Shown in pieces: positions 5,082 through 29,222 of a stretch of DNA of 36,824 nucleotides (positions within the stretch are counted from its first letter, which is position 1; each line of letters starts with the position of its first letter). Location of the stretch: contig JACRDU010000136.1 of the NCBI GenBank assembly GCA_016218495.1, forward strand, positions 1 to 36,824, in the 5' to 3' direction. Made by a program: the position numbers and the translations under genes. Source of the stretch: Elusimicrobiota bacterium. Lineage in GTDB: Bacteria; Elusimicrobiota; Elusimicrobia; UBA1565. The notes beneath the pieces are model-generated. The model saw only the letters and a list, made by a program, of their open reading frames with translations, was not told the DNA's origin and ran no database searches.

Positions 5082-5109
5082 TTGAATTATTCGCACCCAG
5101 GCCTATACT
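5082..5109 (+). promoter_or_regulatory. Probable promoter of the giant adhesin-motor operon
   Basis: TTGAAT at 5082-5087 and TATACT at 5104-5109 are 16 bases apart, in an AT-richer island within very GC-rich sequence. Initiation would fall near 5116. AAGGAAGG at 5113-5120 follows immediately. This is the best sigma-70-like site I found in the window. It sits directly before the run of overlapping plus-strand genes ending at 28032. Confidence 0.55.
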
Positions 5110-5138
5110 CTTAAGGAAGGAATCGCAACCTCTTCGTA

Positions 5139-7730
5139 ATGTATTTCCCGGGGTCCCCAGGTATCGTTGGCATGGTGAGAACCGCCCTGCGTCGCCGCTT
5201 CTTGGGTGTCGCCGCCGTCGTGTTGACGGCGATTCCCGGCTGGGCTGCCATCGCCCCCGGCCGGGTCACCGACCTCTCCGTCCAGGCGATGGCATCGACC
5301 GGTCTGGGCGCCGGTTCGATGAGCGTGACCCTGGACTGGACCGCGCCGGGCGCTGAAGGGTACTCTGGCGCCCTGAGCGGCTTCTTCTCCGTGCGCTGGT
5401 CGACGGTCCAGCCCATAACGAGCGACCTGCAGTTCCAGAACGCGGCCTTCGCGCAGGACGCGGCGGCGGCCGGTGTGACGCCGGGCAGCCGGCAGTCGAT
5501 GACGATCGCCGGCCTGGACTCCTCGGCCACCCACTATTTCGTCTTGAAGTCCACCGACGACGAGGGTCTGACCTCGGTCTTGTCGCTGGGAGCCACCGCG
5601 CCGAGCTATGTGCTGCGCTCTACGTGGTCGGCGGATTCGCGCGTCATGGCGCTGGGGGACCTCGACGGGGACGGCGACCTCGACGTCGTGGTGCAGGACG
5701 CCGGGCTCGACTTCGTGCTGCGGCGCAATCCCGACGGGGGCTTCACGAGGTTCCTGCTATCTGATAACAACGGCGCGGGGATTGCCCTGGGAGACTACGA
5801 CAACGACGGCGACCTGGACATCGCGGTGGCGGCGGGGAACAACACTCAGTCCTATGTCGCCCGCAACCTCGGGCAGGGGACTTTCTCCACCTTCACGCTC
5901 ACCGGCGCCGGGAATGCAGTGGGCGCCGTCTGGGGCGACTTCGACAACGACCGCGACCTGGACCTGGTGCTGGCTTATGACGACGCCGCGTCGCGCCTGT
6001 ATCGCAACGGCCTGCCCACGCCGTTGAGCTTCTCCCGCGAGGACCTTGCCCTGTCCGGCAGCGGGACGGCGGGGGTGGGCGCCGCCGACTTCGACAACGA
6101 CGGGATGCTCGACCTCGTCCAGGCGAACCGTCTCGGAGCGGGCGTGGACAGCTTCCTGATGCGCAACGGCGGGACCTCTCCCAGCATCCGGGTGGAACTG
6201 CGCGGCAGCCGCCGCGCCTCGGACGCGGAGGGAGGGTTGTCGGTGGGCGACCTCGACGGCGACGGCGACCCCGACGTCATCGTGGCGAGCGAGGACGGGG
6301 GCACGATACAGTCGCTGCGCAACGACGACACGGCCCTAAACGCTCCGACGGCCCCATCGGCCCTGGCGGCCTCTTTCTCGGAATACGGGTTGTTTTCGAG
6401 CTCGGGGGTGCTGACGCTGTCTTGGGGCCTGGGAGCCGACGCCGACGAAGCGGCCGACAACCTGCGCTACCTGGTGCGGGTGGGGAGCGAGCCGGGCGGG
6501 CGGGGAATCATCTCGCGCGCCCCGTACGCCGGCGGCGACGGCCATAATGCAGGCTGGTTCCAGCACCCGGACCGAATATCTTCAACGACGGCGCAGGGGC
6601 GGTACCTGGTCCTATCCAAGGGCGCATCGGTCTACTGGGACGTGGTGGCCTTGGATCGCATCCTCCGTCGTTCGGCTCCGACCGGCGAAGCGCAGGTCTC
6701 TCTTGTCGCGCCCCGGGTCGTGACGGACCTGCGGGTTGCCAGCATCGTTTCCACCGGACTCGGGGCCGCGTCGCTGACGGTGACCCTGACCTGGACGGCC
6801 CCCGGCGACGACGGCGCCGACGGAGCCCTGAGCGGGCTCTACGACCTGCGCTGGTCCGCGACTGCTCCGTTGACGGGCGCCGCCGCCTATTCCGCCGCGC
6901 CGTTCCAACTGCAGCGGGCGACCAGCGCGGTGACGCCCGGCACCTTGCAGTCTGTCTCCTTGAGCGGTCTCTCGGCCCTGACTTCGTATTACTTCGCGCT
7001 GACCACCAAGGACCAGGTGGGGGTACGCTCGGACCTGTCGAACCCGGCGACGGCGCCGGCGTATGTGATTCCGCTGGCGCTTTCCGGCCAGTTCCTGGGC
7101 GCCCTCTGGGCGGACTTCGACGGGGATGGGGATCTCGACGGCGTCCTTAGCGGGAACAACCTCGTCTTGCTGCGCAACCTCGGGGGCGGGGTCCTCTCGC
7201 AATCCAACATCGCGGTCGGCGGCACCCGGCGCAGCCTCGCGGTCGCCGACTACGACAACGACGGGGACCTGGACCTGGCGGTCTCAAGCTCGGCGTTCTT
7301 CTACGAAAACGCGGGGGATGGGACCTTCGTCGCGAAATCCACGGAGGTCATCGGGGTCGCCTCGGCGTGGGGGGATTACGACAACGACGGCGATTTCGAC
7401 CTCCTGGTCTCCCGGGACGGGGAGAATTTCATCTACCGGAACCAGGGGGGGGGGTCTTTGACCGGGTGTCGATTCCGGGGACGCCGGCAGGCAACACCGG
7501 GGTGGCCTGGGGGGACATCGACAGCGACGGCGACTTGGATGCGATGTTCGGGAACAACGGCGGAGGGACGGCGTACCTCCTGCGCAATGACGGCAGTGGC
7601 GGTTTTACTGTCAGCGACCCGGGAGCCAGCGGCTGTCAGGCCCAGGGCGGCGCGGGATTCGCGGACCTCGACGGCGACGGTGATGCCGACGCTCTTCTGC
7701 CCTGCAACAACTGGCTGTACCGATATCTGA
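5139..7730 (+). CDS. Giant FG-GAP/Fn3 surface protein, N-terminal part (frame broken at a G10 tract)
   Basis: This is the first reading frame of a gene that continues in another frame to 20323. Genuine sequence runs to the ten-G run at 7445-7454; the rest of this frame to 7730 is out of phase. The start is ATG 5139, or ATG 5172, which gives a tidier signal peptide (MVRTALRRRFLGVAAVVLTA...WA). After the signal come an Fn3 domain (about 5256-5600), five FG-GAP/VCBS blades with Ca-binding DxDxDGDxD loops (5650-6330), a linker domain, a second Fn3 (6712-7075) and three blades of the second propeller. In the frame as given, the cell would make an 863-residue secreted fragment lacking the C-terminal sorting domain. 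FG-GAP propellers are typical of integrin-like and adhesive surface proteins. Confidence 0.85.
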   Translation: MYFPGSPGIVGMVRTALRRRFLGVAAVVLTAIPGWAAIAPGRVTDLSVQAMASTGLGAGSMSVTLDWTAPGAEGYSGALSGFFSVRWSTVQPITSDLQFQNAAFAQDAAAAGVTPGSRQSMTIAGLDSSATHYFVLKSTDDEGLTSVLSLGATAPSYVLRSTWSADSRVMALGDLDGDGDLDVVVQDAGLDFVLRRNPDGGFTRFLLSDNNGAGIALGDYDNDGDLDIAVAAGNNTQSYVARNLGQGTFSTFTLTGAGNAVGAVWGDFDNDRDLDLVLAYDDAASRLYRNGLPTPLSFSREDLALSGSGTAGVGAADFDNDGMLDLVQANRLGAGVDSFLMRNGGTSPSIRVELRGSRRASDAEGGLSVGDLDGDGDPDVIVASEDGGTIQSLRNDDTALNAPTAPSALAASFSEYGLFSSSGVLTLSWGLGADADEAADNLRYLVRVGSEPGGRGIISRAPYAGGDGHNAGWFQHPDRISSTTAQGRYLVLSKGASVYWDVVALDRILRRSAPTGEAQVSLVAPRVVTDLRVASIVSTGLGAASLTVTLTWTAPGDDGADGALSGLYDLRWSATAPLTGAAAYSAAPFQLQRATSAVTPGTLQSVSLSGLSALTSYYFALTTKDQVGVRSDLSNPATAPAYVIPLALSGQFLGALWADFDGDGDLDGVLSGNNLVLLRNLGGGVLSQSNIAVGGTRRSLAVADYDNDGDLDLAVSSSAFFYENAGDGTFVAKSTEVIGVASAWGDYDNDGDFDLLVSRDGENFIYRNQGGGSLTGCRFRGRRQATPGWPGGTSTATATWMRCSGTTAEGRRTSCAMTAVAVLLSATREPAAVRPRAARDSRTSTATVMPTLFCPATTGCTDI

Positions 7731-10700
7731 ACCAAGGCGGCGGTTCGATGGTTCAGGCTTCCTTCGGCTTCAACGCCGACGGCTTGGCGTTGGCCGACTT
7801 CGACGAGGACGGCGACATGGACGCAGCCTTCGTTCCGAATGCCAACGCGCCGTTGCGTTCGGGCCTGCTCCGCAACGACGGCGCCGGCGGCCTGACGGCG
7901 CAGACCTTCGCAGGTTCGAACTACGCCGGCGGGGCTTGGGGGTTGGGCCTCAGCGCAGGAGACTACGACGGGGACGGCGACCTCGACCTTCTGGCCGGCT
8001 ACACGTCGGGGGCGGAGGTGATTCGCCACGACGACGCCGGCCCGCAGGGCCATTCCCCGCCAGGAGCGCCGTCCACCGGATTCGGGGCGCAGTTCGAGGA
8101 ATACTCGGTGGTGTCCTCCTCGGGGCTGCTCTCGCTGCTGTGGGACTCCGCCACAGATTTTCAGTCTCCCGCCTCCCAGCTCGAGTACTATGTGCGCCTG
8201 GGGACGACGGCCGCAGGGTCGAGCACCAGGCTGAAGGTCCCGCTGCGGTTCTCGTGGGACGGCGCGGCTACGGCCCGCTCGCAGCTCTACTCCACCCGCC
8301 TCTCGCAGGCTCAGCGCGGGCTCAAGGTCGCGATGCAGCGGGGCGTCACGGCCTATTGGGCCGTCGTGACCGAGGATGGCAACATGCAGCGCTCGGCGCC
8401 TTCCGCCGAGCAAACGACCTACCTCATCCCTCCTCGTGCGGTGACGGACCTGCAGGTGAGCGCGATTAACTCCACGGGCTTCGGGGCGTCGATGATGAGC
8501 GTGACCTTGACTTGGACCGCTCCAGGGGAGGACGAGGGGGGCGGCACGCTGGGCGGGGCCTACGACATCCGCTGGTCGTCGGTCGCGCCTCTGGCGAGCC
8601 TGTCCCTCTATGCCGCGGCGCCGGGCCAGCTCGTGGTCTCGACGAGCGGGGTGGCGCCGGGGAGCCGCCAGGCGATGGCCGTGAGCGGGTTGTCGGCGCT
8701 GACGAGCTGGTACTTCGCCCTGACGACGAAGGACTCCATCGGGATGCGCTCGGGGCTGTCGAACCAGACGACGGCGGTGACGGGCATCTTCCGGGTTACG
8801 GTTTCCACATTGCCGAATTCGTACCCGGTTTGGGCGGATTTTGACAACGACGGCGACCTGGACCTATATGTCGGAAGACCCAATGTCGGCGGGGGTGGTG
8901 GGAATTATTTCCCTTCTTACGTATTCCGCAACGATGGGGGAGTCCTGACGACCACATTCCCCGTCGCCGGCCAGCTGATCAATGCGGGGATGCCTGCTGT
9001 CGCAGATTTTGACAATGACGGTTTGTTGGATGTATTCGCCACGCACATCAATTCGGCCGGCGATTCGTACCGCAGTCAACTCTTGTTGAATCGGGGCGCA
9101 TTTCAACTCCAGAACGTCCAGAACATGAATACGGTTTGGGATTATGCCGCAGCGGCGGCCGACTACGACCGGGACGGAGATTTCGATGTGGCCGTGGTGA
9201 GGGAGGCTGCTGGTATCTATGGCATTATCCTTGCCAACAATAGCGGCAATGGGACGATGACCTATATCAACAATCCCGCATGGCTGACTGATGGGAGGTA
9301 TGGAACCGCTTGGGGCGATGTCGACTCTGACGGGGACCTGGACCTGGCAATCCCGTTCGACCAGAATCGGCAACTGATGATTCTCCGTAACGATATTCCG
9401 CAAATCTCCACATTCACCTGGTCCCAATTCGCCAAAAACCATTACAACCAGTCATTCGCCTGGAGGGACTTCGACGGCGACGGCGACCTTGACTTGGCTT
9501 CAGCGGGAGAGGGGAAATGCTCCATCTTCAGGAACGACGGATTGCCGGAACCGAGCGAGTTCGTGCTGGGGACCGACCCCGCCGCTTTACGGCTCGCCTG
9601 GGGCGATTTGGACGGCGACGGCGACTCGGACCTGCTCTGCGGTTCCAGCTGGTTCCGCTATGAGTCAGGAACGACGTTCACCCAGATCGCCATCACTGGG
9701 AACGTCGCGGGGTCCGCGTCGTTGGGAGACTACGATGACGACGGCGACCTGGATATGGCCATTGCGAACTCCAACGGGGTATACCTCCTCCGGAACGACA
9801 CAGAGGTGGGGAACTCCACGCCGACCGCGCCCGCCGCGGGCTTTTCCGCGTCGTTTTCAGACTACGGGGTAGGGGCGAGTTCTGGACTGTTGACGCTCTC
9901 GTGGGGGGACGGGACGGATTCCGAGACAACGAATCCCCAGATGTTGGAGTACTTCGTGCGCATCGGCACGAACGGCCCGGGTTCGGGCACCTTCTATCGT
10001 ATCCCAGCTCGCTACTCTTTGGGGAGCATGGGCGGCAGTTCGTATCTTTACAGCACCCGCCTGTCCACCTCCCAGCGCGGCATTCGCGTCTCGGTGACTA
10101 CGAGCAGCGTCGTCTACTGGGCAGTCGTCACCGAGGACGCCGGCTTCAAGCGTTCTCCCGAGTCGGCGGAGCAGAACATCTCCCTGGTCGGCCCGCGCGC
10201 CGTCACCGACCTGTCCGTCTACTCCATCGTCTCCACCGGCCTGGCCGCCTCGTCGACGACCGTCACCCTGACCTGGACCGCCCCGGGCCACGACGGCGAC
10301 CAGCTCAACCTCACCGGCTCCTACGACGTCCGCTGGTCCAGCACCGCCCCCATCACCAGCACCATGGCCTATGCCCAGGCGGCCTTTGCCACAACGGTGG
10401 CCACCTCGGCGGTGACGCCCGGGGCGCGGCAATGGGCCAGCATCCCGTACCTGGACGCGGCCGTCACCTACTACTTCGCGCTCACGACGAAAGATGACAT
10501 CGGCGTGCGCTCTGGGCTGTCGAATCCGACCACGGGCCCCGCCTACGTCGTCGTAATCCCCTCAGGAGGAGACAGCAAGGGCGCGGCCTGGGGCGACTAC
10601 GACGGGGACGGCGACCTCGACGTCTTGGTCGCCAATGACGCCAACCAGGACGAGGTCCTGCTGCGCAACGACGGGGGGGCGTTCAGCGTCATCACGATCG

Positions 10701-11940
10701 GCTCCACGGGGGGACAGTCCCATTCCGTGGCTTGGGGCGACATCGACAACGACGGCGACCTCGACGCCGTCGTGGCGAACTGGGCGGAGAACGCCGTCCT
10801 GCTGCGCAACACGGGGGGCGCGCTCAGCCCTGAGGCCATCCCGGGCTCGTCGAGCTCCGCGACGGCGGCGGCCTTCGGCGACTTCGACATGGACGGCGAC
10901 CTCGACGTTCTCATATCGGCCGTGGGTGATGAGGTCCTGCTGCGCAACGACGGGGCCGGCAACTTCACGGCCGCCGTCTTGACCGGGACCGGGGGGAATT
11001 CCAACAGCGTCGCTTGGGGGGACTACGACAACGACGGCGACTTGGATGCCCTGCTGGTCAATTTCACGGACGGGGGTGACCCGGTCGGAGATGAGTTCCT
11101 GCTCCGCAACGACGCAGGCGTCCTCGTCAAGGTGGCGTTGCCGGGGACCGGGCACAACAGCAGCGCCGGGGCTTGGGGCGACCTGGACGGCGACGGCGAC
11201 CTCGATGGGCTGGTCGTCGGCGCAAACGACCCTTATGTCCTGCGCAACGACGGCGGCGGGGCGTTCACCAAGCTGGTCTTGAACGGCTTGGGCGCCAACG
11301 ACAACGCCTTGGGGCTGGGGGATTTCGACGCCGACGGGGACCTGGACGCCTTCGTCTCCGCGGTGAACGGAGCGACCTATATGCTGCGCAACGACGGCCT
11401 CCTGAGCTTCTCGAAGCTCTTCTTGCGCGGCGGCGGCACGGACGGCTGGCGCTTGTCGGCTTCGGTGGGAGACTCCGACGGGGACGGCGACCTCGATGTA
11501 TTCGTCAGCGGAGGGGCGGGCGGCTTCAACGAGCGCGTATTCGTCAACCGCACGGACGCTACCCATACGCCCCCCAGCCCGCCCGTGGCCGGCTTTGGGT
11601 CCTCCTATTTCACCGAATACTCGGCCACCTCCTCCTCAGGCGTGCTGACCTTGACCTGGTCCGACGGGTCGGACGCCCAGACCCCTGACCCGGACCTGCT
11701 CGAGTACCTGGTGCGCCTCTCCACCATCGATGTAGCGGGTTCGAGCAGCGTCTACAAGGTCCCTCCCCGCTTCGGCAACGACGGTCTGGGCGCCTCTTCC
11801 CTATATAGCACCCGCCTGGGAGGCGGGCAGCGCGGTCTGCGCCTGGTCATCCAGAAGGGGTCCACCGTGCATTGGGGCGTCACCACGGTGGACCCGCAGG
11901 GCCAGCGCTCGGCTGAATCGGCCGCGCAGACCTTCTCCGC
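5256..11940 (+). repeat. Four tandem Fn3 + FG-GAP propeller modules in the giant protein
   Basis: Each module starts with an Fn3 domain beginning R(A/V)(V/)TDL.V and containing VTLTWTAPG and YYFALTTKD. It continues with blades carrying D-x-D-x-DGD-x-D Ca loops, then a linker domain (SSSGLLTLSWGD; LEY.VR.G; YWAVVT). By eye I count 5, 7, 7 and 7 Ca loops in modules I-IV (26 in all). Modules II-IV therefore look like complete seven-bladed propellers, while module I may have two degenerate blades. Fn3 starts are near 5256, 6712, 8434 and 10195. Confidence 0.8.
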
Positions 11941-14900
11941 CGTCGTCCCCGCCGCGCCGACTCTTTCCTTGGTGGACCTCGACGCCCTCTCGACCAGCTC
12001 CACGGCCTGGGTCAGGGCCTCCTGGACCGCCGCCGCCGGGGCCTCCTATTACGATGTTCGCTGGGCCACCTACTCGCTGGCCAGCCCGGCGCTCTACGCG
12101 CTGGCTTCCTATCGAAGCACGAGCTCGGCGCTGTCGGCCGACCTGTCCGTGCCTCCCGGCAGGACCTGGTACTTCGCCGTCACAGCCGTCAGCGCCCAGG
12201 GACTGCGCTCGGCCCCTTCCAACTCGATATCACGGCACGCCGCCGGCCTGGAGGTGCGCACCACCGTCGTATCCCCCGCGCAGGAACTGCAGGACGTGAC
12301 GACGGCCTACCTGCGCCTGGACCTGCGCTCCACCGGCGATACGTTCTCGTGGCAGACGCTGGCCGTGGCCAAGCGCGGCCTCCTAGACGACGCCTCGGTG
12401 TCGGACGTCGGCCTCTACCTCGACGCCAACAGCAACGGGGTCTTTGACGGACCCGGGACCGACGGAAAAATCACAGCCAACGCCGTCTTCTCCTCAAGCC
12501 AGGTAGTCCTGAGCATCTCCGGGGGGCGGTTGATTACAGCGGCCCAGGCGACCTTCTTCCTGGCTATGACGCCCAGCACCAGCTTCCTCCCCGTGGCCGG
12601 GGCCACGGTGTCGCTCAGCCTCTCGGGACAGTCGTTCACGGTGAAGGGTCTGACCGGCCTGGGTTATTCTCCGGCCGCCGGAGTCCTGGCTCCCGACCTG
12701 CCCGGCCTGGCCTTCGACGGCTCCGATGACACGGTGACCCGCGCCTATGACGCCGGACTCGACTTCGGCCCGGCGCTGACCTTGGAGGCCTGGTTCCGCT
12801 CCACGGCCACCCACGCTCAGACCCTCGTGTCGCGTTCGGCCGCGGCCGGCGCTTCAGGAGTGGCCCTGTCGCTCAACGCCGGGGGCTGTGCGGGCGGCGG
12901 CCTCAAGTTCTCCTATGGGGGAGCCGCTGCCTGCGCGGCCGGATTGGGGGCCGCCGACGGGCTCTGGCACCACGCCGCCGGCGTCCACGCCGCCTCCGGC
13001 GCCCTGCTCTTCCTCGACGGCCTGCCCGTGGCCACCGGCACGGCGGCGGGGTCGCTGTCCAGCGTGGGTTCGGCCATGGCCGCCGGGCGTCATCCCGCAG
13101 ACGGCGCACCCCTCCTGGGCGAGCTTGACGAGGTCAGGTTGTCCTCCTCGGCGCGTTACGCCTCGGCCTTCGTCCCGACCCATCGGAACTCCGCGGACGC
13201 GGCTACGGCGGTGCTCTGGCACTTCGATGCGGCGGACCTCGATGGCACTCAGGCGGGCGATGCCTCGGGCAATGCCCGTCACGGGACCCTTTCAGGAGGG
13301 GTCGCCGGGGCGGCGCGTTCCGGGGCCCTAGCCGTCCTCGACAAGCCAGACACCCTCTTCACGCAGGCCGCCAGCCTGCTGCCGGCCACGATGCTGCGCT
13401 CGGACCAGAACCAGGCGGCCTTCAGGCTCAAGCTCTGGACGGACGGCGACGCCGTCGTCGTCTCGTCTTTGGCGGTGCGCCGGGTGGGCGGGGCGGACGG
13501 GGACCTGAGCGCGGTCCGCCTGCACCGCGACGACGGCGACGGGGTCTTCTCGGCCGCCACGGACCCCAACCTGACCCCCGGCCAGAGCTTCGTCAGCGGC
13601 TCGGCCACCATACCGTTGGCCGGGGCGGGCCAGGCCCAGACGGTGTTCGCCGCCACGCGCACCTACTTCCTCGTCGTCGACGTGTCTCCCTCGGCGAACT
13701 CGGGCAGCACGCTCTCGCTGCGTCTGGAAGGCGCGGGTTCCTTGGGGGTTTCCGGCACGACGGACACGGTTTCCGGCATCAATCTGCCCTTTGAGACCGC
13801 CGTCAGCACGGTCTTCGCCAGCACGGCCAGCGTCACCGTCTCCCTGGCCACCGGCACCTGGGTGAGCGTCTCCTCCGTCATCGCCTTCGCGGACTTCCCG
13901 GCCAGCACGACCTACCGCTACGTCCTCGACCACGCCGCGCAGACGACGGTGGTGCTCGGCGACACGCAATGGTCGGCCGGGGCGGCCACCGTGCCGTTTT
14001 CGACCTCGGCGGCGGATTGGTACCTGCACGCGCGCAGCTTCGACCAGGCTTCCACCCCCGGACAGCAGACCGACCTCGGGCCGTTCTGGGTGGACCGGGA
14101 CGAGCCCGCCTCCTCCGCTTTCGCCGCCCTCTCCTCGACGGGCGGGGCCAAGGCGGAGGCGCAGTTCATCGACACGACGACGGCCCAGGTACGCCTGAGC
14201 GTGACGGACGCCCTGAGCGGCCTGGCGGTGTCGAGCGCCGGCCTGACCAGGCTCGGCAACGGCAACGACGTAGGCCCCGGGGCGGGGGGCTACGGGGTGC
14301 TCTATTCGACCGATGCCGGAGCTTCATGGGCCGCGGCTTCTACGGCCGTCTTGGTCCAATCGGGCCAATTCGTCTCGGCGATCGGCGCCTTCCGCGACGA
14401 ATTGTACCTGGGGCTGGCCTCGGCACAGGGGGTCCGGCGCAGCACGGACGGCCGCAACTGGGGCGGGGCGTTCGGAATCGGCCTCGGGGAGGTGCGGTCC
14501 TTCGCCGAATACCGCGGAAGGCTCTATGCCTCCGGCGCGGCGGGTGTAGTCGCGTACACATCCGACGGCACGAACTGGCAGAACAGCCTCTCGCCGCCGT
14601 CGGAGGGCACCGCCTGGGGTCTGGCCGTCCATGGCGGGGGCCTCTACGCTGCGGCCAGCTCGACCGACAACACCCAAGGCAGGGTCTATCGTTCGACGGA
14701 CGGCGCTGCTTGGACCATCGTCTCGACGGTCACCGGACAAGGCTTCCGCGCGCTGCTCTCCGCCAAGGGGTTCCTGCTGGGCGGGACCAGCGGAGGCAGC
14801 CCGGGGGTGTGGTCCTCGGCTGACGGCGTCTACTGGCAGCGCACCCTCGCCGCGGCGGAGGACGTCTATACCGTTATCGAGCACGGCGGCTATGTCTTCG

Positions 14901-20323: not shown

Positions 20324-21876
20324 TGCCCTCCATGCGCCTGCTCCTCGCCGTCCTGGCCTTCGCGGCCCCCGCCGCGGCGGAGGGCGGCCGCCCGGGCGGG
20401 GTGTTCGATTTCGCCGCGGCAGGACGGGGCGCGGCGATGGGAGGGGCCTTCGTGGCGCTGGCCGACGACGCGTCATCCCTGCACTTCAACCCGGCCGGGC
20501 TCGGCCGCCTGCAGGGACAGCACCTCTCCCTGCTCCATGCCACGCTCTTCGAGGGGGCATCGCTCGACCACCTCGCCTACGCCCGGCAGGGCCGTTTCGG
20601 GGGGCTGGGCGCGCAATTCCTGCGCCTCTCCGTCGGAGGCATACCCGGCCGCGACGAATTCAACAACCCGACCGGCGGGTTCGACTACCAGGAGCAGGCG
20701 GTGACGCTCGGCTACGGCACGCCGCGCTTCCTCGACGGCCGGCTATCGGTGGGCGGCTCGGCCAAGGTGCTGCAGCGCGCTCTGGGGGGCTTCTCGAACC
20801 GCCTGATCGGCATCGACGTCGGCACTCAGTACGAGGGCCGCTGGCGCGAGCGGCGCACGCGCCTGGGCCTGGTGGCGCGCAACCTCGGCGCGCTCAAGAT
20901 GGGGGACACCGACGACCGCCTGCCGCTGGACGTGCGCGTGGGGGCGGGTTTCGAGGTGCTGCGTGGGCTGACTCTGGGCGCCAACGTCTCCTCCAACCTG
21001 GAATTCGAGTTCGGGACGGAGTACGCGCTCGGCCCCGGGGCGCTGCGCGTGGGGCTGCAGGACGGCCGACCCACCTTCGGCGGCGGGGTCCGCTTCCTCA
21101 AGCGTTGGTCCTTGGATATGGCGCTCTCGAACCACAGCGTGCTGGGGATGACGAACCTGGTCTCCCTGGGCTGGCGCTTCGGCGCCGAACGCGCCGAGGC
21201 CAAGGTGCGCGCCACCTACAAGGACCTGGCCGCCTCAGCCGACCGGGCGCTGGACGCGAAGCGCTACCGCGCGGCGGCCGAGCTCTACGAAAGGGCGACC
21301 CGCTCGACGCTGGCCGACGGGGACGCCCAGCGCGCCCGGGACCTGGCCCGTTACGGCCGTCTCAGGGCCCTGCTCGCCGAGCTGAAGCTGGACCTGACTC
21401 CGGAGGGGGAGAAGACCCTCGAGCTCGACGCGGAGTCCGCCGACACGGCGCTCAAGGGCGTCAAAGCGCTGATGGAGGGAGAGGAGCGCAAGGCCCTGCT
21501 CCTCGCGCAGGCCGCCTACGGGGCGGACTCCGGAATCGGGGTCTACAAGGCCCTGATGGACGCGGTGGCGCGCCTCACGTTCCAGAAGCCCCGGCCCGAC
21601 GAGCTCTTCCCGGTCAAGACGCTGGTGCAGGCCAAGCTGGGCAAGGCGCACGAGGCCTTCTTGGCGACGCGCTACGACGAAGCGTCCGAGCACTGTCGTG
21701 AGGCGCTGATGCTGGAACCCGAGTCAGCGCTGGCGCACGAGCGCCTGGGCTCGCTCTATTTCGCGATGGGCCTGCGCGCCAAGGCCATGGCCGAGTGGCG
21801 CGAGGCGATGCGGCTGGACCCCGGCAACTCGGCGCTGAAGGATTTCATGCGGCGCATCCTGGAGGGAAAACCATGA
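20323..21876 (+). CDS. PorV/PorQ-like outer-membrane protein with C-terminal TPRs
   Basis: The product has 517 residues. The ATG at 20323 shares one base with the stop of the giant gene (TGATG), implying translational coupling. Residues 1-20 are a signal peptide (MPSMRLLLAVLAFAAPAAAE). Residues 22-290 carry the hallmarks of the PorV/PorQ (UPF0164) beta-barrel family: AAGRGAAMGGAFVALADDAS and LHFNPAGLGRL, followed by alternating beta strands. The C-terminal 200 residues are helical with TPR-like repeats, the last two around EAFLATRYDEA and LGSLYFAMGLRAKAMAEWR. PorV of Bacteroidota delivers CTD-bearing cargo to the surface. Here the co-encoded giant protein is the obvious candidate cargo. TPRs are not part of classical PorV and may dock a periplasmic partner. 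The 3' end overlaps the next gene by four bases. Confidence 0.85.
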   Translation: MPSMRLLLAVLAFAAPAAAEGGRPGGVFDFAAAGRGAAMGGAFVALADDASSLHFNPAGLGRLQGQHLSLLHATLFEGASLDHLAYARQGRFGGLGAQFLRLSVGGIPGRDEFNNPTGGFDYQEQAVTLGYGTPRFLDGRLSVGGSAKVLQRALGGFSNRLIGIDVGTQYEGRWRERRTRLGLVARNLGALKMGDTDDRLPLDVRVGAGFEVLRGLTLGANVSSNLEFEFGTEYALGPGALRVGLQDGRPTFGGGVRFLKRWSLDMALSNHSVLGMTNLVSLGWRFGAERAEAKVRATYKDLAASADRALDAKRYRAAAELYERATRSTLADGDAQRARDLARYGRLRALLAELKLDLTPEGEKTLELDAESADTALKGVKALMEGEERKALLLAQAAYGADSGIGVYKALMDAVARLTFQKPRPDELFPVKTLVQAKLGKAHEAFLATRYDEASEHCREALMLEPESALAHERLGSLYFAMGLRAKAMAEWREAMRLDPGNSALKDFMRRILEGKP

Positions 21877-23447
21877 GGACTCTGGCGATTCTGCTCACCG
21901 CGGGCCTGGCCTGCGGCAGCGCATCGGCCGCACCCGAGGGCACGATCCACGACGATGAGACCCGGCTTTCGACCGCGCTGCAGGAGCGGGCGCAGGGGGC
22001 CCTCGACGGCGTTTTCGGCAGCGGCCGCGCCTCGGTGCAGGTGCGCGCCGACCTGGCGCTCTCGCCGGAGGCCAACGCCTGGCTGGCCAAGGCGCTGCGC
22101 CCCCCGACCGCCCCGGCGGCGGGGGGGGAGGACCCGGCGAAATTCAACTGGGCTTGGATGGGGACCGTTGCGCCGACCGAGCGGGACTTCGTGCTGCCGG
22201 GGTTCCCGGACGAGAAGAAGCGCGCGCAGAAGGCCGAGCAGGCGACGGCGCCCGCCCAGCGCGATTTCGTCGACCCCGGCCTCGTTCGCACCTTCGGGAC
22301 CGAGGTGCTGCGCCTGAACGCGCGCGTTACGCTGGATTCGAACCTGCCAGACGACGCCGCGGCGAAGGCGGAGGCTCTGGTCCGGGAGGCCATCGGGGCC
22401 GCGGATTCGCGCGGGGACAAGGTCAGCGTGGAGCGTGTTCCCATGCCCCGCCCCTGGGAGCTGGTCCTGCGTCGCCCCGACCTCGCGGCCGCCATAGCCC
22501 AGCGCTTGGTCATGGCCCTGCTCGGGGCGGTCTTGGCCGTCGGCCTGGTGTTCTTCGGGCGCAGCCTCGAGAGGGCCGTGCGCGGCGCCGCCGAGCGCCT
22601 CGGGCAGGCATTGCAGCGCTCGGCCGAGCGGTCGTTGGACCTGCGCATCGGGGGTAAGGCCGGCTTGGAGGGTTCCGGAGGGCTGGGCGCGCTGGGCCTC
22701 CAGGCGCTGGAGGCCCGTTCTGCGGCCGAGGCCGGGGGGAGCGCCGCGAAGGAATCGGAGCCGGACGCTCCTCCGGTATTCTCCATCGCCCCCGAGGAGG
22801 CCCCGAAGTTGGCCCACCTCCTCGGCGACCAGCCCGCGCAGCACGTGGCCCTGGTCGTCCCTTACCTGGCCCCTGAGACCCGCGAGGCCTTCCTGGCCCT
22901 GCTCGGCGCCCCGCGCGCGTCCGAGGTGCTGGGGGCCATGGTACCCGTCCGGTATGTGGACCCGGACCAGCTCAAGACCCTCCAATCCGAGCTCGAACGC
23001 CGCATAGACGGGGTGATGGGGGGCGTCGAGCAGGCCGCCCAGTTCCTGACCACCTTCCCCAGCCGCCGGCGGGCCGAGTTGCTGAAGCTCCTGCGCGAGC
23101 GGGATGCCGAGTCGGCGGCGCAGCTGCGCCAGCGGGTGCTGCTGCTCGAGGACCTGGAGAAGTTCGTCCCCGACGAGCTGGCGGTGCTGACCTCGACGTT
23201 GAGCATCGATGACCTGGCGGCCGCCAGCGTCGGCATGCCGGAGGGATTCGTGGCGGCGTTGGGCGAGTCCCTGCCGCGCCGGACGGCGGCGATGTTCCGG
23301 GAGTCGGCCTCGCTGCCGCAGGACCCCGATAAGAGCGCGGCTGCCCGAGAGGCTCTGCTGGCCAAGGCGGAGTCGCTGATCGCCGAGGGGCGGCTGAAGC
23401 GGCCGCCGGTCTCCACGGTCAGGCTGGGAAGCGAGATGAAACCGTAA
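21873..23447 (+). CDS. FliF-FliG-like fusion: signal peptide, FliF C-terminal region, TM helix, FliG domains
   Basis: The product has 524 residues, with ATG 21873 in an ATGA overlap and GGAGGG eight bases upstream. Residues 1-20 are a signal peptide. Residues 37-60 (GALDGVFGSGRASVQVRADL) resemble the FliF segment ending in a VQV.ADL strand. Residues 140-190 match the conserved FliF C-terminal region, including LNARVTLDS and the diagnostic RGDKVSVERVPM. Residues 212-229 form one transmembrane helix. Residues 303-510 are FliG-like: LLGDQPAQHVALVVPYLAPE (compare FliG HPQT..L.YL.PE), RRIDGVMGG..QAA..L, RQRVLLLEDL, and LPRRTAAMFRE. FliF builds the MS ring and FliG the torque ring of flagella. Here the N-terminal RBM rings are absent and both functions share one chain. 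The stator genes follow. Typical FliG charged torque positions are not obviously kept. Confidence 0.82.
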   Translation: MRTLAILLTAGLACGSASAAPEGTIHDDETRLSTALQERAQGALDGVFGSGRASVQVRADLALSPEANAWLAKALRPPTAPAAGGEDPAKFNWAWMGTVAPTERDFVLPGFPDEKKRAQKAEQATAPAQRDFVDPGLVRTFGTEVLRLNARVTLDSNLPDDAAAKAEALVREAIGAADSRGDKVSVERVPMPRPWELVLRRPDLAAAIAQRLVMALLGAVLAVGLVFFGRSLERAVRGAAERLGQALQRSAERSLDLRIGGKAGLEGSGGLGALGLQALEARSAAEAGGSAAKESEPDAPPVFSIAPEEAPKLAHLLGDQPAQHVALVVPYLAPETREAFLALLGAPRASEVLGAMVPVRYVDPDQLKTLQSELERRIDGVMGGVEQAAQFLTTFPSRRRAELLKLLRERDAESAAQLRQRVLLLEDLEKFVPDELAVLTSTLSIDDLAAASVGMPEGFVAALGESLPRRTAAMFRESASLPQDPDKSAAAREALLAKAESLIAEGRLKRPPVSTVRLGSEMKP

Positions 23448-23464
23448 CAACGAGGGGCTATTGA

Positions 23465-23494
23465 ATGGAACGGATGCCCACGGACCTTAGATGA
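23465..23494 (+). CDS. Possible 9-codon leader peptide coupled to motA
   Basis: ATG 23465, with a GAGGGG purine stretch upstream, encodes MERMPTDLR. Its stop TGA (23492-23494) overlaps the motA ATG at 23491 as ATGA. motA itself has only a weak ribosome-binding site, so reinitiation from this mini-ORF could load motA. This is suggestive only; a 9-codon frame can arise by chance. Confidence 0.25.
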   Translation: MERMPTDLR

Positions 23495-24255
23495 CCCTTC
23501 TGGGCCTGATTATAGGCGTGCTGGTCTTCGCCTTCGCTCTGAGCCAGGGCGGGGCGACGCGGGCTCTGGTCAACCTGCACGGCCTGATCATAGTGGTCGG
23601 CGGGAGCTCGGCGGCGCTGATGGTCAACTCCTCGGGGGCGGAGATCATGGCGGCGCTGCGCGCCTTCTTCTCGCTGTTCCGCAGCCCCGCCATCCCCGCG
23701 CCGGAAGCCACCATTCCCCTCCTCACGGCCATGTGCCGCGACGCGCGGCGCGCCGGCCTGCGGGCGATCCAGGACTCCGGGCAGGGGCACGGGGACGGCT
23801 TCATGGCCCGGGCGCTCGACATCGCCCTGGCCGCCGGGGACGTCCAGACCGCGCGGGAGGCCCTGGAGCGCGAGCTCAACGTGCTCCGGGCGCGCCACCG
23901 CGAGGTCGGCAACGTCTTCCGTACGCTGGCCGTGCTGTCCCCGATGTTCGGACTTCTGGGGACGCTGATCGGCATCATCGGCGTCCTGCGCGACCTGACG
24001 GAGGCGGAGGTCCTGGGACGGGCCATGGCCGTCGCCGTCTCATCGGCCCTCTATGGGATCGCCATCGCCAACCTCATCCTGGTCCCGGCTGCGGGGAAGC
24101 TGCGCTCGCGGAGCCTCGACGAGCTGCTCTCCAAGGAACTCATCATGGTCGGCGTGCTCGACATCGTATATTCTCAGAAGCCTCCGGCCCTGGTCGAGCT
24201 GACGCTCCAGGCCTTCGCGGGGGCGCGCCGCTCCAGCGTCCCCGGGGCGGCCTGA
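23491..24255 (+). CDS. motA: MotA-family stator channel protein
   Basis: The product has 254 residues. There are four transmembrane helices (about 3-19, 30-46, 148-166 and 180-202) with the large cytoplasmic loop between helices 2 and 3, the MotA/PomA layout. Helix 3 contains LSPMFGLLGTLIGII with Pro151, and helix 4 ends in LILVPAAGKL with Pro199. These are the two functionally important prolines of MotA. The long charged loop (AREALERELNVLRARHREVG) would face the rotor. MotA assembles as a pentamer around a MotB dimer and couples ion flow to rotation. The FliF-FliG-like rotor is encoded 43 bases upstream and motB overlaps by one base (TGATG). ExbB/TolQ/ZorA relatives are alternatives, but the MotB partner and the short C-tail favour MotA. 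Confidence 0.88.
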   Translation: MTLLGLIIGVLVFAFALSQGGATRALVNLHGLIIVVGGSSAALMVNSSGAEIMAALRAFFSLFRSPAIPAPEATIPLLTAMCRDARRAGLRAIQDSGQGHGDGFMARALDIALAAGDVQTAREALERELNVLRARHREVGNVFRTLAVLSPMFGLLGTLIGIIGVLRDLTEAEVLGRAMAVAVSSALYGIAIANLILVPAAGKLRSRSLDELLSKELIMVGVLDIVYSQKPPALVELTLQAFAGARRSSVPGAA

Positions 24256-24935
24256 TGGCGCTGCAGCGCGACCGCGAGGAGGAACTGGAAGCCCTGCTCA
24301 ACCGGGGCAGCCTGTGGGCGATCACCTACGGCGACCTGATGAGCTTCCTGATGATCTTCTTCCTGATCCTATTCGCCATGGCCATAAAGGGCCGGGCGGG
24401 GATGGCGGAGGGCCTCGGCGCGCTGCAGCGGCAGTTCGGCGGCGAGCGGACCTCCTCCGCGCTACAGAGGCTGGAGGACCGCAGCCGGGAGCTGGCGGTG
24501 GCCGACGACCTCAAGACCAAGCTCTACGGCCGGGGGCAGCAGGAGTTCGTCACCGTCAACGTGACCGAGCAGCGCATCCTCGTCACGATGCCCGACCCCA
24601 TCCTGTTCGACTCCGGCGCCGCGGCCCTCAAGGCGCAAGCGCACCCGTTCCTGGCGGAGTTCTCCGAGATCGTGAAGACGCTGCCGAACAACATCGTGGT
24701 CGAGGGCCACACCGACGACCGCGCCGTGCGCGGCGGACGCTTCGCCTCGAATTGGGAGCTCTCGATGGCGCGGGCGGCCAGCGTGGTCGGCTATCTCGTG
24801 CGCGAGCAGGGCCTCGACCCGCGCCGGGTATCCGGGGCGGGGTTCGCGGAGTTCCGCCCGGTCGCCTCCAACGACACCCCGGAGGGCAGGGCCGCGAACC
24901 GCCGCATCGAGATCAGCATGCTGAGGAGGGAGTAG
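24255..24935 (+). CDS. motB: MotB-family stator protein with OmpA-like peptidoglycan-binding domain
   Basis: The product has 226 residues. One N-terminal helix (about 20-43) is introduced by WAITYGDLMSFLMIFFLILF. Asp27 lies at the ion-binding position conserved in MotB and PomB, so an ion-conducting stator is expected. After a short linker (45-95) comes an OmpA-like domain: LFDSGAAALK, VVEGHTDDRAV, NWELSMARAASV, RVSGAGFAEFRPV, and NRRIEI. This domain binds peptidoglycan and anchors the stator. The ATG overlaps the motA stop by one base, and the TAG stop overlaps the next GTG start. The start and length are typical for the family, at the short end. Confidence 0.9.
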   Translation: MALQRDREEELEALLNRGSLWAITYGDLMSFLMIFFLILFAMAIKGRAGMAEGLGALQRQFGGERTSSALQRLEDRSRELAVADDLKTKLYGRGQQEFVTVNVTEQRILVTMPDPILFDSGAAALKAQAHPFLAEFSEIVKTLPNNIVVEGHTDDRAVRGGRFASNWELSMARAASVVGYLVREQGLDPRRVSGAGFAEFRPVASNDTPEGRAANRRIEISMLRRE

Positions 24936-25939
24936 TGGCTGCGGGCTCCTCCGATGACGCGCTGGCCTCCCTTATCCGAGCCCTGAAGGGGGACAAAGGC
25001 GTCGCGGAAGGCGCTCCGCCGGCCCCGTCTCCGGCTCCCGCCCCGGCGCCGGCGCCGCCCGCGGCGGCCTCCCAGAGCCCGCCCGCCGCGGGCCTGGAGA
25101 CGTTCCTGATGAGGCGCCTGGAGGGCCTGGAAGGTCAGCTGCGCGACGAGCGGGCGCGGGCTTCCGCCGCCGAGGCGCGCATGGCCGAACAGGACGCGGC
25201 GCGAGCGGAGGCCGATGCCGAACTCCGCCGCACGCTCGACGCGATGCGCCAGGTCCAGGCGGAATCCCATTCCCGCGGGAGGGTGGAGGCGTTGGAGTCC
25301 AGGCTCGACGCGATGCACCAGGCCATGATGGAGATGCTGCGGCGCATCGAGGCCGGGCGGGCGGAGGCCCGTCCTGGCGCCGACCCGGCCGCCCGCGCCG
25401 TGCAGGACTTGGTGCTGCCGCTGCTGGAGCGCCTCTCGCTGCGGATTTCGGAACTGGCGCCGCGGGTCGAAGCCACGCACGGCGACCAGAAGAGGGCTCT
25501 GACGGAGCTCGCCGAGGCCCGCAAGGACGCGGAGTCGGCCTTCGAGGCCCTGCGCCAGGAAGCGCGCAGCCGCGAGGACCGCCTCTTCACCCTGTCGGTG
25601 CAGGCGCGCCGCGAGAGCAAGGAGGCGATGGCCGTCGTGCGAGAGGTCACGGCCGCCCTGGCCGAGGCCGTCGCCGGATTCGCGCGAGAGGCCGGCGAGG
25701 CGCGCGCGGGTTGGGAGAAGGCCCGCCTGGCTCTGGACCAGGCGCGCGAGGCGGCGGAGGCCGCCAGCCGGACCTTGGCTAGCCTCGCCCCGCGCGGGGC
25801 CGCGCTAGAGCAGTCGGCTGCGCTGCTGGCCAAGATCGAGACGGTCGAATCCTCTTTGGCCGAGGCCGGGCGGCGCCTGGCCGAGAAAGACGCGGCCGTG
25901 GCCAGGCTTTCGCGATTGCTGGGAGAAAGGTTAAAGTGA
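24935..25939 (+). CDS. Proline/alanine-rich coiled-coil protein of the motor operon
   Basis: The product has 334 residues. The GTG start at 24935 overlaps the motB stop (TAGTG), with GAGGAGGG six bases upstream. Residues 1-22 are a short helix, 26-58 a Pro-Ala-rich linker (PAPSPAPAPAPAPPAAASQ), and 60-330 almost continuous predicted coiled coil rich in Glu, Arg and Ala. There is no signal peptide and no transmembrane helix, so it should be cytoplasmic. No enzyme motif is visible and I do not recognise a family. Its position between MotB and the kinase suggests a scaffold or rotor-associated rod for the FliG-like machine. It could equally be a cytoskeletal or polar-positioning protein. Confidence 0.8.
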   Translation: MAAGSSDDALASLIRALKGDKGVAEGAPPAPSPAPAPAPAPPAAASQSPPAAGLETFLMRRLEGLEGQLRDERARASAAEARMAEQDAARAEADAELRRTLDAMRQVQAESHSRGRVEALESRLDAMHQAMMEMLRRIEAGRAEARPGADPAARAVQDLVLPLLERLSLRISELAPRVEATHGDQKRALTELAEARKDAESAFEALRQEARSREDRLFTLSVQARRESKEAMAVVREVTAALAEAVAGFAREAGEARAGWEKARLALDQAREAAEAASRTLASLAPRGAALEQSAALLAKIETVESSLAEAGRRLAEKDAAVARLSRLLGERLK

Positions 25940-25958
25940 CGCGGGCTCCCGCGTCGCT

Positions 25959-26972
25959 ATGACCCTCTTCAAGCGCCTGCTCCTGCTCCTCTTCGCGCTG
26001 ATGGTGCTTCCGGTCCTCGTGACGGTCGGCTGGTTCCTACGCGCCGGCGAACGCGGACAGACGAACGCCCGGCGCATGCATTCCCTCGTCACGGTGACGG
26101 CGGCGGGCTTGGTCGAAGGCGCCATCGAGGAGGTCAACGATTCTCTGCGGTTCGTGGCCGACTTGGAGCGTGCGGGGGGGACTTCCGACGAGCTCCGCGC
26201 GGTCCAGACCAGCGTGATGACGCACCCTTCGCTGGCCTTCGCCGGGGTCTACGGGGCGGACGGGACTCAACGGCTGCGCGTGGGACGCCAGGGGCTGCTG
26301 GATGGGGACGGCTCCCCATGGCTGCGCCTCGGGGCCGGGGAGGCTGCTGGTTCCGGGCGGCTGGCGACGCTGGGCCTGATCGAGGAGTCCGGTCGGCCTC
26401 TGCTGCTGGTGGTGCATCCGCTCTCGCGTGGCGGAGGCGTCTTGGCGGCCTTCGACATGTCCGGGCTCTGGAAGCGCCTGGCTCTGCTCAAGCCCGGGGG
26501 GGGGGCGAGGGCGGGTGCTCCTGTTGGGGACCGACGGGACTCCGCTCAAGGGCTTCGCGTCCGGGACGCAGCCGCTGCCTGTCCCGGCGGAGTCCGCAAC
26601 GGAGGGCGACTTCGCGGCCGCGGGCATGATCGGCGCCTGGACGACCGTGCCGGGGCTGACTTGGCGGATTGTCAGCCTCCAGCCCGTGGCGGTGGTGGGG
26701 GTCTCCCAGGACGAGGTCCGGGGCTCGTTGGCCCTGTTCCTGCTGGTGGTGGCCGCGCTGGCCGCGGGGGCGGCCGCATTCACGGCGCGCGCGCTCAGCG
26801 ACCCCTTGCTCGCGCTAGCCTCGGCCGCCGACGGCGTCAGCGCCCAGCGCTTCGACCGGCGCGTGGCGGAGGCGGGGTGGCCCGAGGTGCGCCAGGTCGC
26901 CCGGGGCTTCAATCAGATGATGGAGCGGATGGCCTTCTTCCAGCGCGCCCAGGTCGACAAGCAGCTCGATGA
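25959..26972 (+). CDS. Sensor histidine kinase, N-terminal sensor part (frame broken at a G10 tract)
   Basis: Genuine sequence runs from ATG 25959 to the G10 tract at 26496-26505; the rest of this frame is out of phase. It begins with an inner-membrane helix (LLLLLFALMVLPVLVTVGWF), followed by about 150 extracytoplasmic residues with a Cache-like look (helix with NDSLRFVADLER, then a FAGVYGADGTQRLRVG strand pair and LLLVVHPLS). This would be a periplasmic sensory domain. The start lies 19 bases after the coiled-coil gene, with no strong ribosome-binding site. Joined by removing one G, the full kinase would have 690 residues. As given, the product is a truncated sensor without a kinase domain. 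Confidence 0.8.
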   Translation: MTLFKRLLLLLFALMVLPVLVTVGWFLRAGERGQTNARRMHSLVTVTAAGLVEGAIEEVNDSLRFVADLERAGGTSDELRAVQTSVMTHPSLAFAGVYGADGTQRLRVGRQGLLDGDGSPWLRLGAGEAAGSGRLATLGLIEESGRPLLLVVHPLSRGGGVLAAFDMSGLWKRLALLKPGGGARAGAPVGDRRDSAQGLRVRDAAAACPGGVRNGGRLRGRGHDRRLDDRAGADLADCQPPARGGGGGLPGRGPGLVGPVPAGGGRAGRGGGRIHGARAQRPLARASLGRRRRQRPALRPARGGGGVARGAPGRPGLQSDDGADGLLPARPGRQAAR

Positions 26973-28032
26973 GAAGACCCGGCTCGACGGGATCGTCGCC
27001 GCGCTGCAGGATGGGATCGCCTTCATAGGCTTGGACGGCCGCTTCATGTTCCTCAACGATGCCGCTCGGACGGCGCTGGGCCTTTCGGACCAGCGCGTGG
27101 TGGGCCTGACGCTCGACGAGGTCTTCGAGGACCCGGTCATGCGCGACGCATTGGTGGGGCTGATGGCGGGCTGCTTGTCGGGGGCGCAGTTGGAACGGCC
27201 CGTGCTCAACAAGGCGGGGGGGCGCATCGGCATCTTCTCGTTCCGGTCGTTCCAGGTGCGGCGCGAGGCGGCGGTGCTCGGCGTGCTGATCGTCATGCGC
27301 GACGTGACCCTGGAACGCGAGCTCGACGACACCAAGAAGTCCATCCTCGAGACGGTGACCCACGACCTGCGCAGCCCGCTGGCGTCGATCGGCGGCTATG
27401 TGGACATGTTCGTCCAGGGCATGATGGGGCCGGCCTCGGAGAAGCAGGTGTCACGCATGAAGATCGTCCTCGAGTCGGTCGCCCAGCTCAACGAGCTCAT
27501 CAACACCATCCTCGACGTCTCGAAGTTCGAGTCCGGCACGATGCGCCTGGACCTCAAGCCCGGGCCCGTCGACCCGATCGTCGAGCGCGTCTTCGAGCTC
27601 TGCAACATCCAGGCCCAGGCCCTCGGCGTGCGCATGGAGAACAAGGCCGCCGCCGGTTTGCCGGAGGTCCCGCTGGAGGCTTCCCAGATTCAGCGCGTCA
27701 TCATGAACCTCGCCACCAATGCGCTGAAGTTCACTCCCGAGGGAGGGGTCGTGACGCTGTCCGCCGCCCGCGAGGAGGGGGGCGGCATCGTCGTCAGGGT
27801 CGCGGACACGGGTTTCGGCATCCCCAAGGACAAGATCGACCGCATGTTCACGAAGTTCTTCCAGGTCGAGGAGACTAAGGAGATGGCGCGCCGCAAGGGG
27901 ACCGGGCTTGGGCTGACGATCTGCCGTCAGGTCGTAGAGGCGCACGGCGGGAGAATCTGGGTGGAGAGCGAATGGGGCAAGGGCAGCGTCTTCTCCTTCA
28001 CTCTGCCGGCGGCGGGCCGCGAGGTCGGCTAG
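26428..28032 (+). CDS. Sensor histidine kinase, HAMP-PAS-HisKA-HATPase part (continuation of the 25959 gene)
   Basis: Genuine from about 26506. After the end of the sensor domain comes a second membrane helix (LALFLLVVAALAAGAAAF), a HAMP domain (SDPLLALASAADGV...F), and a PAS domain (ALQDGIAFIGLDGRFMFLND). Next is HisKA with the phosphorylatable histidine in THDLRSPLASI (about His468 of the joined protein), then HATPase_c with its N-box NLATNALKF, ADTGFGIP and GTGLGLTICRQVVEAHGG. All kinase motifs are intact. It ends the motor operon and overlaps tail-to-tail with the REC-metallo-beta-lactamase gene, its likely partner. The signal sensed is unknown. If expressed alone it would be a soluble kinase fragment. 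Confidence 0.85.
   Translation: MAEASWRPSTCPGSGSAWLCSSPGGGRGRVLLLGTDGTPLKGFASGTQPLPVPAESATEGDFAAAGMIGAWTTVPGLTWRIVSLQPVAVVGVSQDEVRGSLALFLLVVAALAAGAAAFTARALSDPLLALASAADGVSAQRFDRRVAEAGWPEVRQVARGFNQMMERMAFFQRAQVDKQLDEKTRLDGIVAALQDGIAFIGLDGRFMFLNDAARTALGLSDQRVVGLTLDEVFEDPVMRDALVGLMAGCLSGAQLERPVLNKAGGRIGIFSFRSFQVRREAAVLGVLIVMRDVTLERELDDTKKSILETVTHDLRSPLASIGGYVDMFVQGMMGPASEKQVSRMKIVLESVAQLNELINTILDVSKFESGTMRLDLKPGPVDPIVERVFELCNIQAQALGVRMENKAAAGLPEVPLEASQIQRVIMNLATNALKFTPEGGVVTLSAAREEGGGIVVRVADTGFGIPKDKIDRMFTKFFQVEETKEMARRKGTGLGLTICRQVVEAHGGRIWVESEWGKGSVFSFTLPAAGREVG
26496..26505 (+). repeat. G10 homopolymer at the frame break of the kinase gene
   Basis: Ten G residues follow AAGCCC. With 9 (or 12) Gs the frame passes from LALLKPGGG directly into RGRVLLLGTDG, continuing the sensor domain and kinase. 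With 10 it is out of frame. This is the second ten-G run in the same operon, and the only other one of that length I saw. Phase variation or sequencing error are both possible. Confidence 0.85.
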
Positions 28033-29222
28033 AAGGCCGCTTCGTCCCCGGGGCGGGCCATGGTGACCCGCAGCCCGGCGAACTCCCGGAACAGCTCGGC
28101 GCGGGCCGCGGCCAGCGCCGCGTCCAAGGCGGCGTCGTCGTAGCGCGCGTCCATGTGGAACAGCATCAGCGCCCGGACCCCTTCGCGTCCTGCCAGCTCG
28201 GCGATGACGCCCGGCCAGCTGTGCCCGCGCATGGAGCCCGCGGAAGCTTCGTCGAGGAACCGCGCATCGTGGACCAGCAGGTCGGTCCCACGCACGAAAG
28301 CGGAGAACTTCTCGAGGTAGTCGGTCTGCTCGTCGCGCTCCGGCCGCAGTTCGTTGTCGGGGCAATACACCAGCGAGTGGCCCTGGAGCACGACCTTGAA
28401 GGCCATCGTGGCGCCGGGGTGGTAGGTCAACATCGTGGCGACCCGGACGTCGGGTCCGAGGCCCATCCAGTTCTCGGACAGGTCGAAGAGGCGGATGCGG
28501 CCGCCCGCCAGGTCCGGGATCCGGCTGCGCACGACCTGGGCCAGCGGGGACTGCGTGTCGCTCGGCCCGGCGATGGAGATGGAGGCGCCCTTGGCCGCCG
28601 CTTCCGCGAGGACCGACAGGCCCTCCAGGTGGTCGTCATGGTAGTGCGAGAGCAGGACCCAGACCTCCCGCCCCAGCAGCTCCGCCTTCCCGCGCAGGCT
28701 CAGCAGCCCGCTCCCCGCGTCCAAGACGATGCTCTTGCCCTCCAGCGGCACCCAGAGGCAGCAGGTCGGGAGGCCGGGCTTGCCGGGTCCGCGCGAGCCC
28801 AGTACCCGCGCCTTGAACGCGGGCGGACGGGCGGGGGCATCGGCGACGGCATGGGGCTCGGGCGCGCCGAGGACCTTGCGGACGGCCTCGCGGATGCTGG
28901 CCACGCTATAGGGCTTCTCGAGGAAGGCGGCCGCGCCGAGCCGGAGGGCTTCCGCCTTTTCCTGCCCGAAAGACTTGCCGGAGGCTATGATGACGGCCGT
29001 CCCCGCGGTTTCGGCCTGGCCCTTGATCCGGGAGCAGAGGCTCAATCCGTCGCAGCCCGGCATCATGATGTCCAAAAGGACGAGTCGCGGCTTCGCGCGG
29101 CGGATGACGTCGAGGGCGTTCGTCGCCTCGTGGAACGCCTCCGAGGTGTAGCCGAGCTCGGTCAGCAGGGTCCGGGCCATCCCCGCCGCGTAAGGGTCGT
29201 CATCGAAGATCAGGATGTCCAT
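28029..29222 (-). CDS. Response regulator fused to a metallo-beta-lactamase-fold domain
   Basis: The product has 397 residues. Residues 1-118 are a CheY-like receiver: acidic pocket FDDD (7-9), phosphoacceptor Asp51 in LLDIMMPG, Ser81 and Lys103 in EKPY. From about 137 comes a metallo-beta-lactamase fold with LLSHYHDDHLEGL (HxHxDH at 193-198). Further candidate metal ligands occur in TYHPGA, LVHDARFLDE, RGHSWPG and LFHMD, the layout of RNase Z/PhnP-like hydrolases. The output is therefore probably a phosphorylation-controlled hydrolase (phosphodiester or similar) and not DNA binding. It converges with the kinase gene, overlapping by four bases, so it is a natural candidate for the kinase target. 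The substrate cannot be read from sequence. Confidence 0.85.
   Translation of the reverse strand: MDILIFDDDPYAAGMARTLLTELGYTSEAFHEATNALDVIRRAKPRLVLLDIMMPGCDGLSLCSRIKGQAETAGTAVIIASGKSFGQEKAEALRLGAAAFLEKPYSVASIREAVRKVLGAPEPHAVADAPARPPAFKARVLGSRGPGKPGLPTCCLWVPLEGKSIVLDAGSGLLSLRGKAELLGREVWVLLSHYHDDHLEGLSVLAEAAAKGASISIAGPSDTQSPLAQVVRSRIPDLAGGRIRLFDLSENWMGLGPDVRVATMLTYHPGATMAFKVVLQGHSLVYCPDNELRPERDEQTDYLEKFSAFVRGTDLLVHDARFLDEASAGSMRGHSWPGVIAELAGREGVRALMLFHMDARYDDAALDAALAAARAELFREFAGLRVTMARPGDEAAF

Follow-up and report, generated by a model that had tools for sequence, protein, structure and literature searches.

A flagellar-type rotor and stator clustered with a PorV-type carrier suggest an undescribed machine for surface proteins in flagellum-free Elusimicrobiota

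In an Elusimicrobiota bacterium of the order UBA1565, we find a compact cluster of seven genes that combines a single-chain FliF-FliG rotor and a MotA-MotB stator with a PorV-type outer-membrane barrel and a giant surface protein. This suggests a machine, not described so far, that moves or exports surface proteins in many flagellum-free members of this phylum. The cluster lies in a window of 36,824 nt, i.e. the whole stretch of DNA that was analyzed (JACRDU010000136.1, assembly GCA_016218495.1). Its sequence argues strongly for a minimal flagellar-type rotor and stator without a flagellum, and the whole is probably best explained by a non-flagellar, ion-driven rotor-stator unit that would work via PorV on a surface protein. 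To our knowledge, the FliG-MotAB torque unit has been described only inside flagella, and the origin of this unit, or its working alone, is a long-standing question.

The seven genes extend from 5139 to 28032, all on the + strand, in the order giant protein, PorV, FliF-FliG fusion, MotA, MotB, coiled-coil protein and histidine kinase, and all are present as the initial annotation had listed them. Its overlaps of 1-4 bases and other gaps below 50 bases agree with the measured junctions, which are -1 for giant-PorV (TGATG), -4 for PorV-fusion (ATGA), -1 for MotA-MotB and -1 for MotB-coiled coil (TAGTG), with +43 between fusion and MotA and +19 between coiled coil and kinase. A sigma-70-like promoter was not matched within 19800-29400, which is weak evidence in a sequence of 69% G+C. 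Convergent with the kinase gene, the - strand encodes at 28029-29222, as judged by eye, a protein with a response-regulator receiver and a metallo-beta-lactamase-like part. Chance neighbors or a misassembly are ruled out, as dozens of assemblies separately show the same order, among them a circular chromosome; the cluster must be regarded as more than a chance arrangement because its order recurs across the phylum.

The rotor gene (21873-23447) encodes 524 amino acids in which Pfam recognizes FliG_M (3e-8), FliG_C (1e-7) and YscJ_FliF_C (1e-7) in one chain. A signal peptide precedes a periplasmic alpha-beta domain into which a loop is inserted, and a single transmembrane helix at 211-229 leads on to a cytoplasmic part made of helices. 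Foldseek matches the AlphaFold2 model (pLDDT 78.6) to FliG of Salmonella and Thermotoga, with E-values down to 4e-10, and to the RBM3/collar (S-ring) domain of FliF, with E ~1e-3 and a probability of 1.00, and a profile of the fusion relatives matches T. maritima FliG at 1e-56. Because of these domain, model and profile matches, the predicted protein is read as an S-ring domain, one membrane helix and the FliG middle and C-terminal domains. The earlier designation "FliF-like" therefore holds for the RBM3/collar domain, but the protein lacks RBM1, RBM2 and the first FliF helix; FliG_N was not found in the fusion above cut-off. As the fusion is found in this one-chain form throughout the phylum, an assembly artefact is ruled out. 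The window's genome carries four fusion loci and a contig-edge fragment of a fifth (L151, G000:C69, 1-585), which is followed by a TPR lipoprotein-like gene. On another contig of this genome (L150, G000:C33, ~9717-10678), three tandem FliG_C-like ORFs of ~90-100 amino acids occur without FliG_M or a FliF part.

The stator genes are of the flagellar type as well. MotA (23491-24255) matches MotA_ExbB at 2e-19 and PomA of the PDB at 9e-31, its best NCBIfam model is PomA, and the NCBIfam models for TolQ/ExbB score far below those for flagellar PomA/MotA. MotB (24255-24935) consists of a transmembrane segment with a YGD aspartate, a plug (MotB_plug, 3e-9) and an OmpA peptidoglycan-binding domain (3e-18), and the membrane aspartate motif is kept in 73 of 74 homologues. 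In flagella, MotA R90 contacts FliG D288-D289 and MotA E98 contacts FliG R281 (PMC12505986). With the interface columns mapped to E. coli numbering by ourselves, via PomA and Thermotoga FliG, the D288-equivalent position is acidic in 68 of 86 FliG sequences, a count that ignores kinship, while the E98 and R281 equivalents are mostly lost on both sides of the interface. Among 66 loci that have a single MotA and a single FliG, base and acid are both kept in 48, both lost in nine and mixed in nine. This paired charge pattern fits a co-evolving MotA-FliG interface, and it follows the paralogue types, so that each sequence is not independent evidence. Neither torque charge is left in B-type rotors, and torque via the known salt bridge thus cannot be general.

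Which flagellum could this motor serve? Neither the window's genome (G000) nor its circular relative (G044) contains FlhA (PF00771) or a FliF with RBM1-2 (PF01514), and FliM/FliN (PF01052) were found in none of the 54 genomes of the order, with four flagellated control genomes being positive. The circular chromosome of this order, CP096137, carries the fusion in the absence of FlhA, FliM/N and full FliF. In the phylum, FlhA occurs in only 5 of 341 genomes, and full FliF turned up solely alongside FlhA, i.e. in the flagellated Elusimicrobiota; a 2019 paper had described flagellar genes as absent in Elusimicrobia. A complete flagellar set elsewhere in the genome had been named at the outset as one of two refuting results, and none was found in the window's genome. 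In one genome (G166), FlhA, full FliF and the fusion occur together, and because of this coexistence mere decay of a flagellum does not account for the fusion.

The FliG module was detected in 156 of 341 genomes and 71 of 100 genera of the phylum, with many small genomes of family f8 lacking it. A pattern scan for the fusion, which used an alignment of the core type and is the one scan that covered whole genomes beyond the phylum, returned named matches only from Elusimicrobia, Endomicrobia or bins labeled "bacterium". Among loci with enough flanking sequence, as collected with a FliG-only profile, PorV lies upstream of 79 of 83 related fusions, and MotA and MotB follow downstream in 65 and 67 of 74, respectively. 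The order whose absence in all relatives would have spoken against the initial annotation is thus found across the phylum. The loci without MotAB include several Endomicrobia-like ones, in which two very long genes of a coiled-coil type follow the rotor. In a set of 16 genomes that was picked by hand, includes one clade of small genomes and yields counts that ignore kinship, the seven fusion-positive genomes contain 17 full-length flagellar-type MotA genes versus 17 FliFG loci, and 16 of these 17 MotA genes are on the same contig as FliFG, within ~6 kb. None of the nine fusion-negative genomes of the set has a full-length flagellar-type MotA (best match 43 bits).

The protein that almost always accompanies the rotor is a PorV-type barrel with a C-terminal TPR domain (20323-21876), recognized by NF033709 (PorV_fam) above cut-off at 7e-30 (6.7e-30). 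Its AlphaFold2 model (pLDDT 85.5) shows 14 strands followed by helices, and the top Foldseek matches are the T9SS translocon chains 6h3i_F and 8gl6_F. The TPR tail comprises about 210 residues (~288-513) and, as judged from strand parity in the model, should face the periplasm. A C-terminal tail of at least 208 residues is present in 80 of 81 motor-linked PorVs; as a rough control, 99 of the 148 PorV matches listed from 20 genomes lie in frames below 480 amino acids, which are too short for it. In the C-type, the one PorV found lacks the tail, and a separate TPR protein in the cluster resembles the PorV tail (2e-11). The window's genome has about 27 PorV genes, few of which are motor-linked, and because of this number the adjacency to the fusion is not a matter of chance. 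Taken from sequence, the coupling of the rotor to PorV appears well supported.

The giant gene is less constant. It encodes a secreted surface protein with FG-GAP (FG-GAP_3, 5e-75), Fn3 and laminin-G-like domains and a FlgD-Ig/T9SS-like C-terminal domain, the FlgD_ig match being just below the 27-bit cut-off (7e-6, 26.3 bits), and it reaches ~5060 amino acids when read across a frameshift. The gene occupies 5139-20323, its best start being the ATG at 5139 and not at 5082 as had been annotated, and the supposed single open frame turned out to be two, 5139 to ~7450 and ~7440 to 20323. This frameshift falls on a run of ten G at 7445-7454, and the kinase gene is frameshifted at another such run at 26496-26505; the window contains no other G10 run. 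In a congener (G001), the giant frame is open for at least 5113 amino acids and the kinase is one intact frame of 684 amino acids. The two frameshifts could reflect either a homopolymer error of sequencing or assembly or a phase-variable tract of adhesin and sensor. Because a sorting-domain protein lies upstream of the fusion in only 48 of 77 loci with enough sequence, the giant is an accessory of the motor locus that is absent from many loci. The machine of rotor, stator and adhesin that the initial annotation had envisaged stands with regard to a flagellum-free rotor-stator clustered with PorV, but the adhesin as a cargo that is rotated or transported, and gliding or predation as the result, are conjectural. 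At the window locus, its position and C-terminal domain make the giant the likely cargo.

At the other end of the cluster, a proline-rich coiled-coil protein without family match above cut-off (24935-25939) is followed by a frameshifted sensor histidine kinase with N-terminal transmembrane segment, HAMP, PAS, HisKA and HATPase domains (25959-28032). In the FliG tree, the type of the window groups with a sister type whose rotor chain unites HisKA and HATPase domains with FliF and FliG. In L031:8429-10873 and its relatives L036, L040-L043 and L051-L056, kinase, FliF S-ring domain and FliG form one chain, and about a dozen genomes encode this architecture of 809-944 amino acids as a single open frame. 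The joint between kinase and rotor contains a signal-peptide-like stretch, and an internal re-initiation at this joint may be an alternative to the single chain. In the other rotor types, separate kinases adjoin the rotor. The coiled-coil counterpart of L031 lies between rotor and MotA, and MotB is followed there by a gene whose product has a C-terminal DNA-binding domain of the response-regulator type.

How might these components work together? Domains, gene order, co-occurrence and the lack of a flagellum come from sequence and structure prediction, and it is from these that we infer the ring, its torque, the coupling, the movement and the role of the kinase. Peptidoglycan-anchored MotA5-MotB2 stator units would act on a FliFG ring in the inner membrane, with the torque being taken up by the C-terminal torque helix of FliG. 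The periplasmic face of this ring would then work on the TPR handle of the outer-membrane PorV, which would carry a sorting-domain protein, i.e. the giant FG-GAP/Fn3 protein at the window locus. Thereby the motor could either extract PorV with its cargo from an SprA-like translocon or drive PorV and cargo over the cell surface in adhesion or gliding, and the histidine kinase, in the cluster or fused to the rotor as in the sister type, might sense or tune the motor.

The known systems resemble this arrangement only in part. With the flagellar motor it shares the FliG middle and C domains, the FliF RBM3/S-ring domain, a PomA-type MotA and a MotB with aspartate and peptidoglycan-binding domain, but its rotor is one chain, FliF RBM1-2, FliM/N, export gate, rod, hook and filament are lacking, and the cluster includes an outer-membrane PorV and a surface protein. 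Like the Agl-Glt system of Myxococcus, it uses a MotAB-family motor without a flagellum, and we know of no FliG-type rotor described for AglRS. In contrast, the MotA of the cluster is of the flagellar type and has a FliG of its own, and AglRS belong to a generic ion-transporter clade together with TolQR (PMC12505986). The T9SS and SprB gliding of Bacteroidota, where a motor in the inner membrane transmits proton-motive energy through the periplasm and adhesins are driven by this same chain (PMC10994853), have in common with it the PorV-type barrel, a putative FlgD-Ig/T9SS-like cargo domain, a giant adhesin and the proton-motor logic. SprA-like proteins are also encoded elsewhere in most relatives, with partial, sub-cut-off matches to TIGR04189 in 35 of 38, mostly in proteins of ~1800-2100 amino acids (e.g. 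L145:2483-8035, 1850 amino acids and without Pfam match), and none was found in the MAG of the window. Unlike in Bacteroidota, GldM (GldM_1st, PF12081) was found in none of 38 genomes, flagellar-type MotAB and a FliG-based rotor are present instead, and the motor-linked PorV has a TPR tail.

What else, then, could the cluster be? That it is an ordinary flagellar FliF/FliG/MotAB set is hardly conceivable, since its homologous parts are all that speaks for it and the missing FlhA, FliM/N and FliF RBM1-2 in its own genome and in the circular relative rule it out. The remains of a lost flagellum, kept for sensing by a kinase that reads the rotor load, or without any mechanical work, would agree with kinases adjoining or being fused to the rotor and with the small, gut Elusimicrobiaceae-like genomes without motor. 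This is nonetheless improbable, as the motor is retained phylum-wide in conserved order, with as many as 4-5 paralogous loci in a genome and a conserved MotB aspartate, and as a true flagellar set (FlhA and full FliF) exists beside the fusion in G166.

A more serious, though still unlikely, competitor is a motor that energizes export only, replaces GldLM and pulls PorV with its cargo off the SprA-like translocon without any cell movement. The failure to find GldM in 38 genomes, the SprA-like partial matches in 35 of 38 and the near-constant PorV neighbor are in line with this, and for Bacteroidota it has been proposed that energy input forces PorV and substrate off SprA (PMC10994853). However, few PorVs are motor-linked, one would not expect a general engine of export to be optional or to occur in 4-5 copies, and SprA-like proteins also occur in the motor-free genomes G010, G020 and G027, which weakens the idea of an obligate T9SS engine. 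As motor-free genomes keep these proteins, export in general can probably do without the motor, and this favors a specialized role, for example in moving or deploying certain surface proteins. A FliG-MotAB machine that across Elusimicrobiota moves PorV-anchored proteins, including giant adhesins, for gliding, and that has in one type the kinase within the rotor, is a tentative reading that we hold to be quite possible, somewhat short of probable, and gliding as such is unproven.

No description of such a system was found in the open text of PMC, a scope outside of which preprints and most subscription papers lie, and a 2026 review on gliding contains no mention of FliG, FliF or Elusimicrobi-. 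Since the cluster belongs neither to the flagellum nor to the T9SS by its gene content, the system would be categorically new, with a function that is read from its genes. If the proposed mechanism is true, it would represent a flagellum-independent use of the FliG-MotAB motor in a phylum with few flagella, and it may point to surface movement in bacteria that are not known to move. Built from a single rotor chain and a pair of stator chains, it would also be a tractable minimal motor. In the sister type, the kinase would be covalently part of the rotor, as though reading or setting the motor state directly, and with this fusion one might therefore examine directly how the state of a motor is reported.
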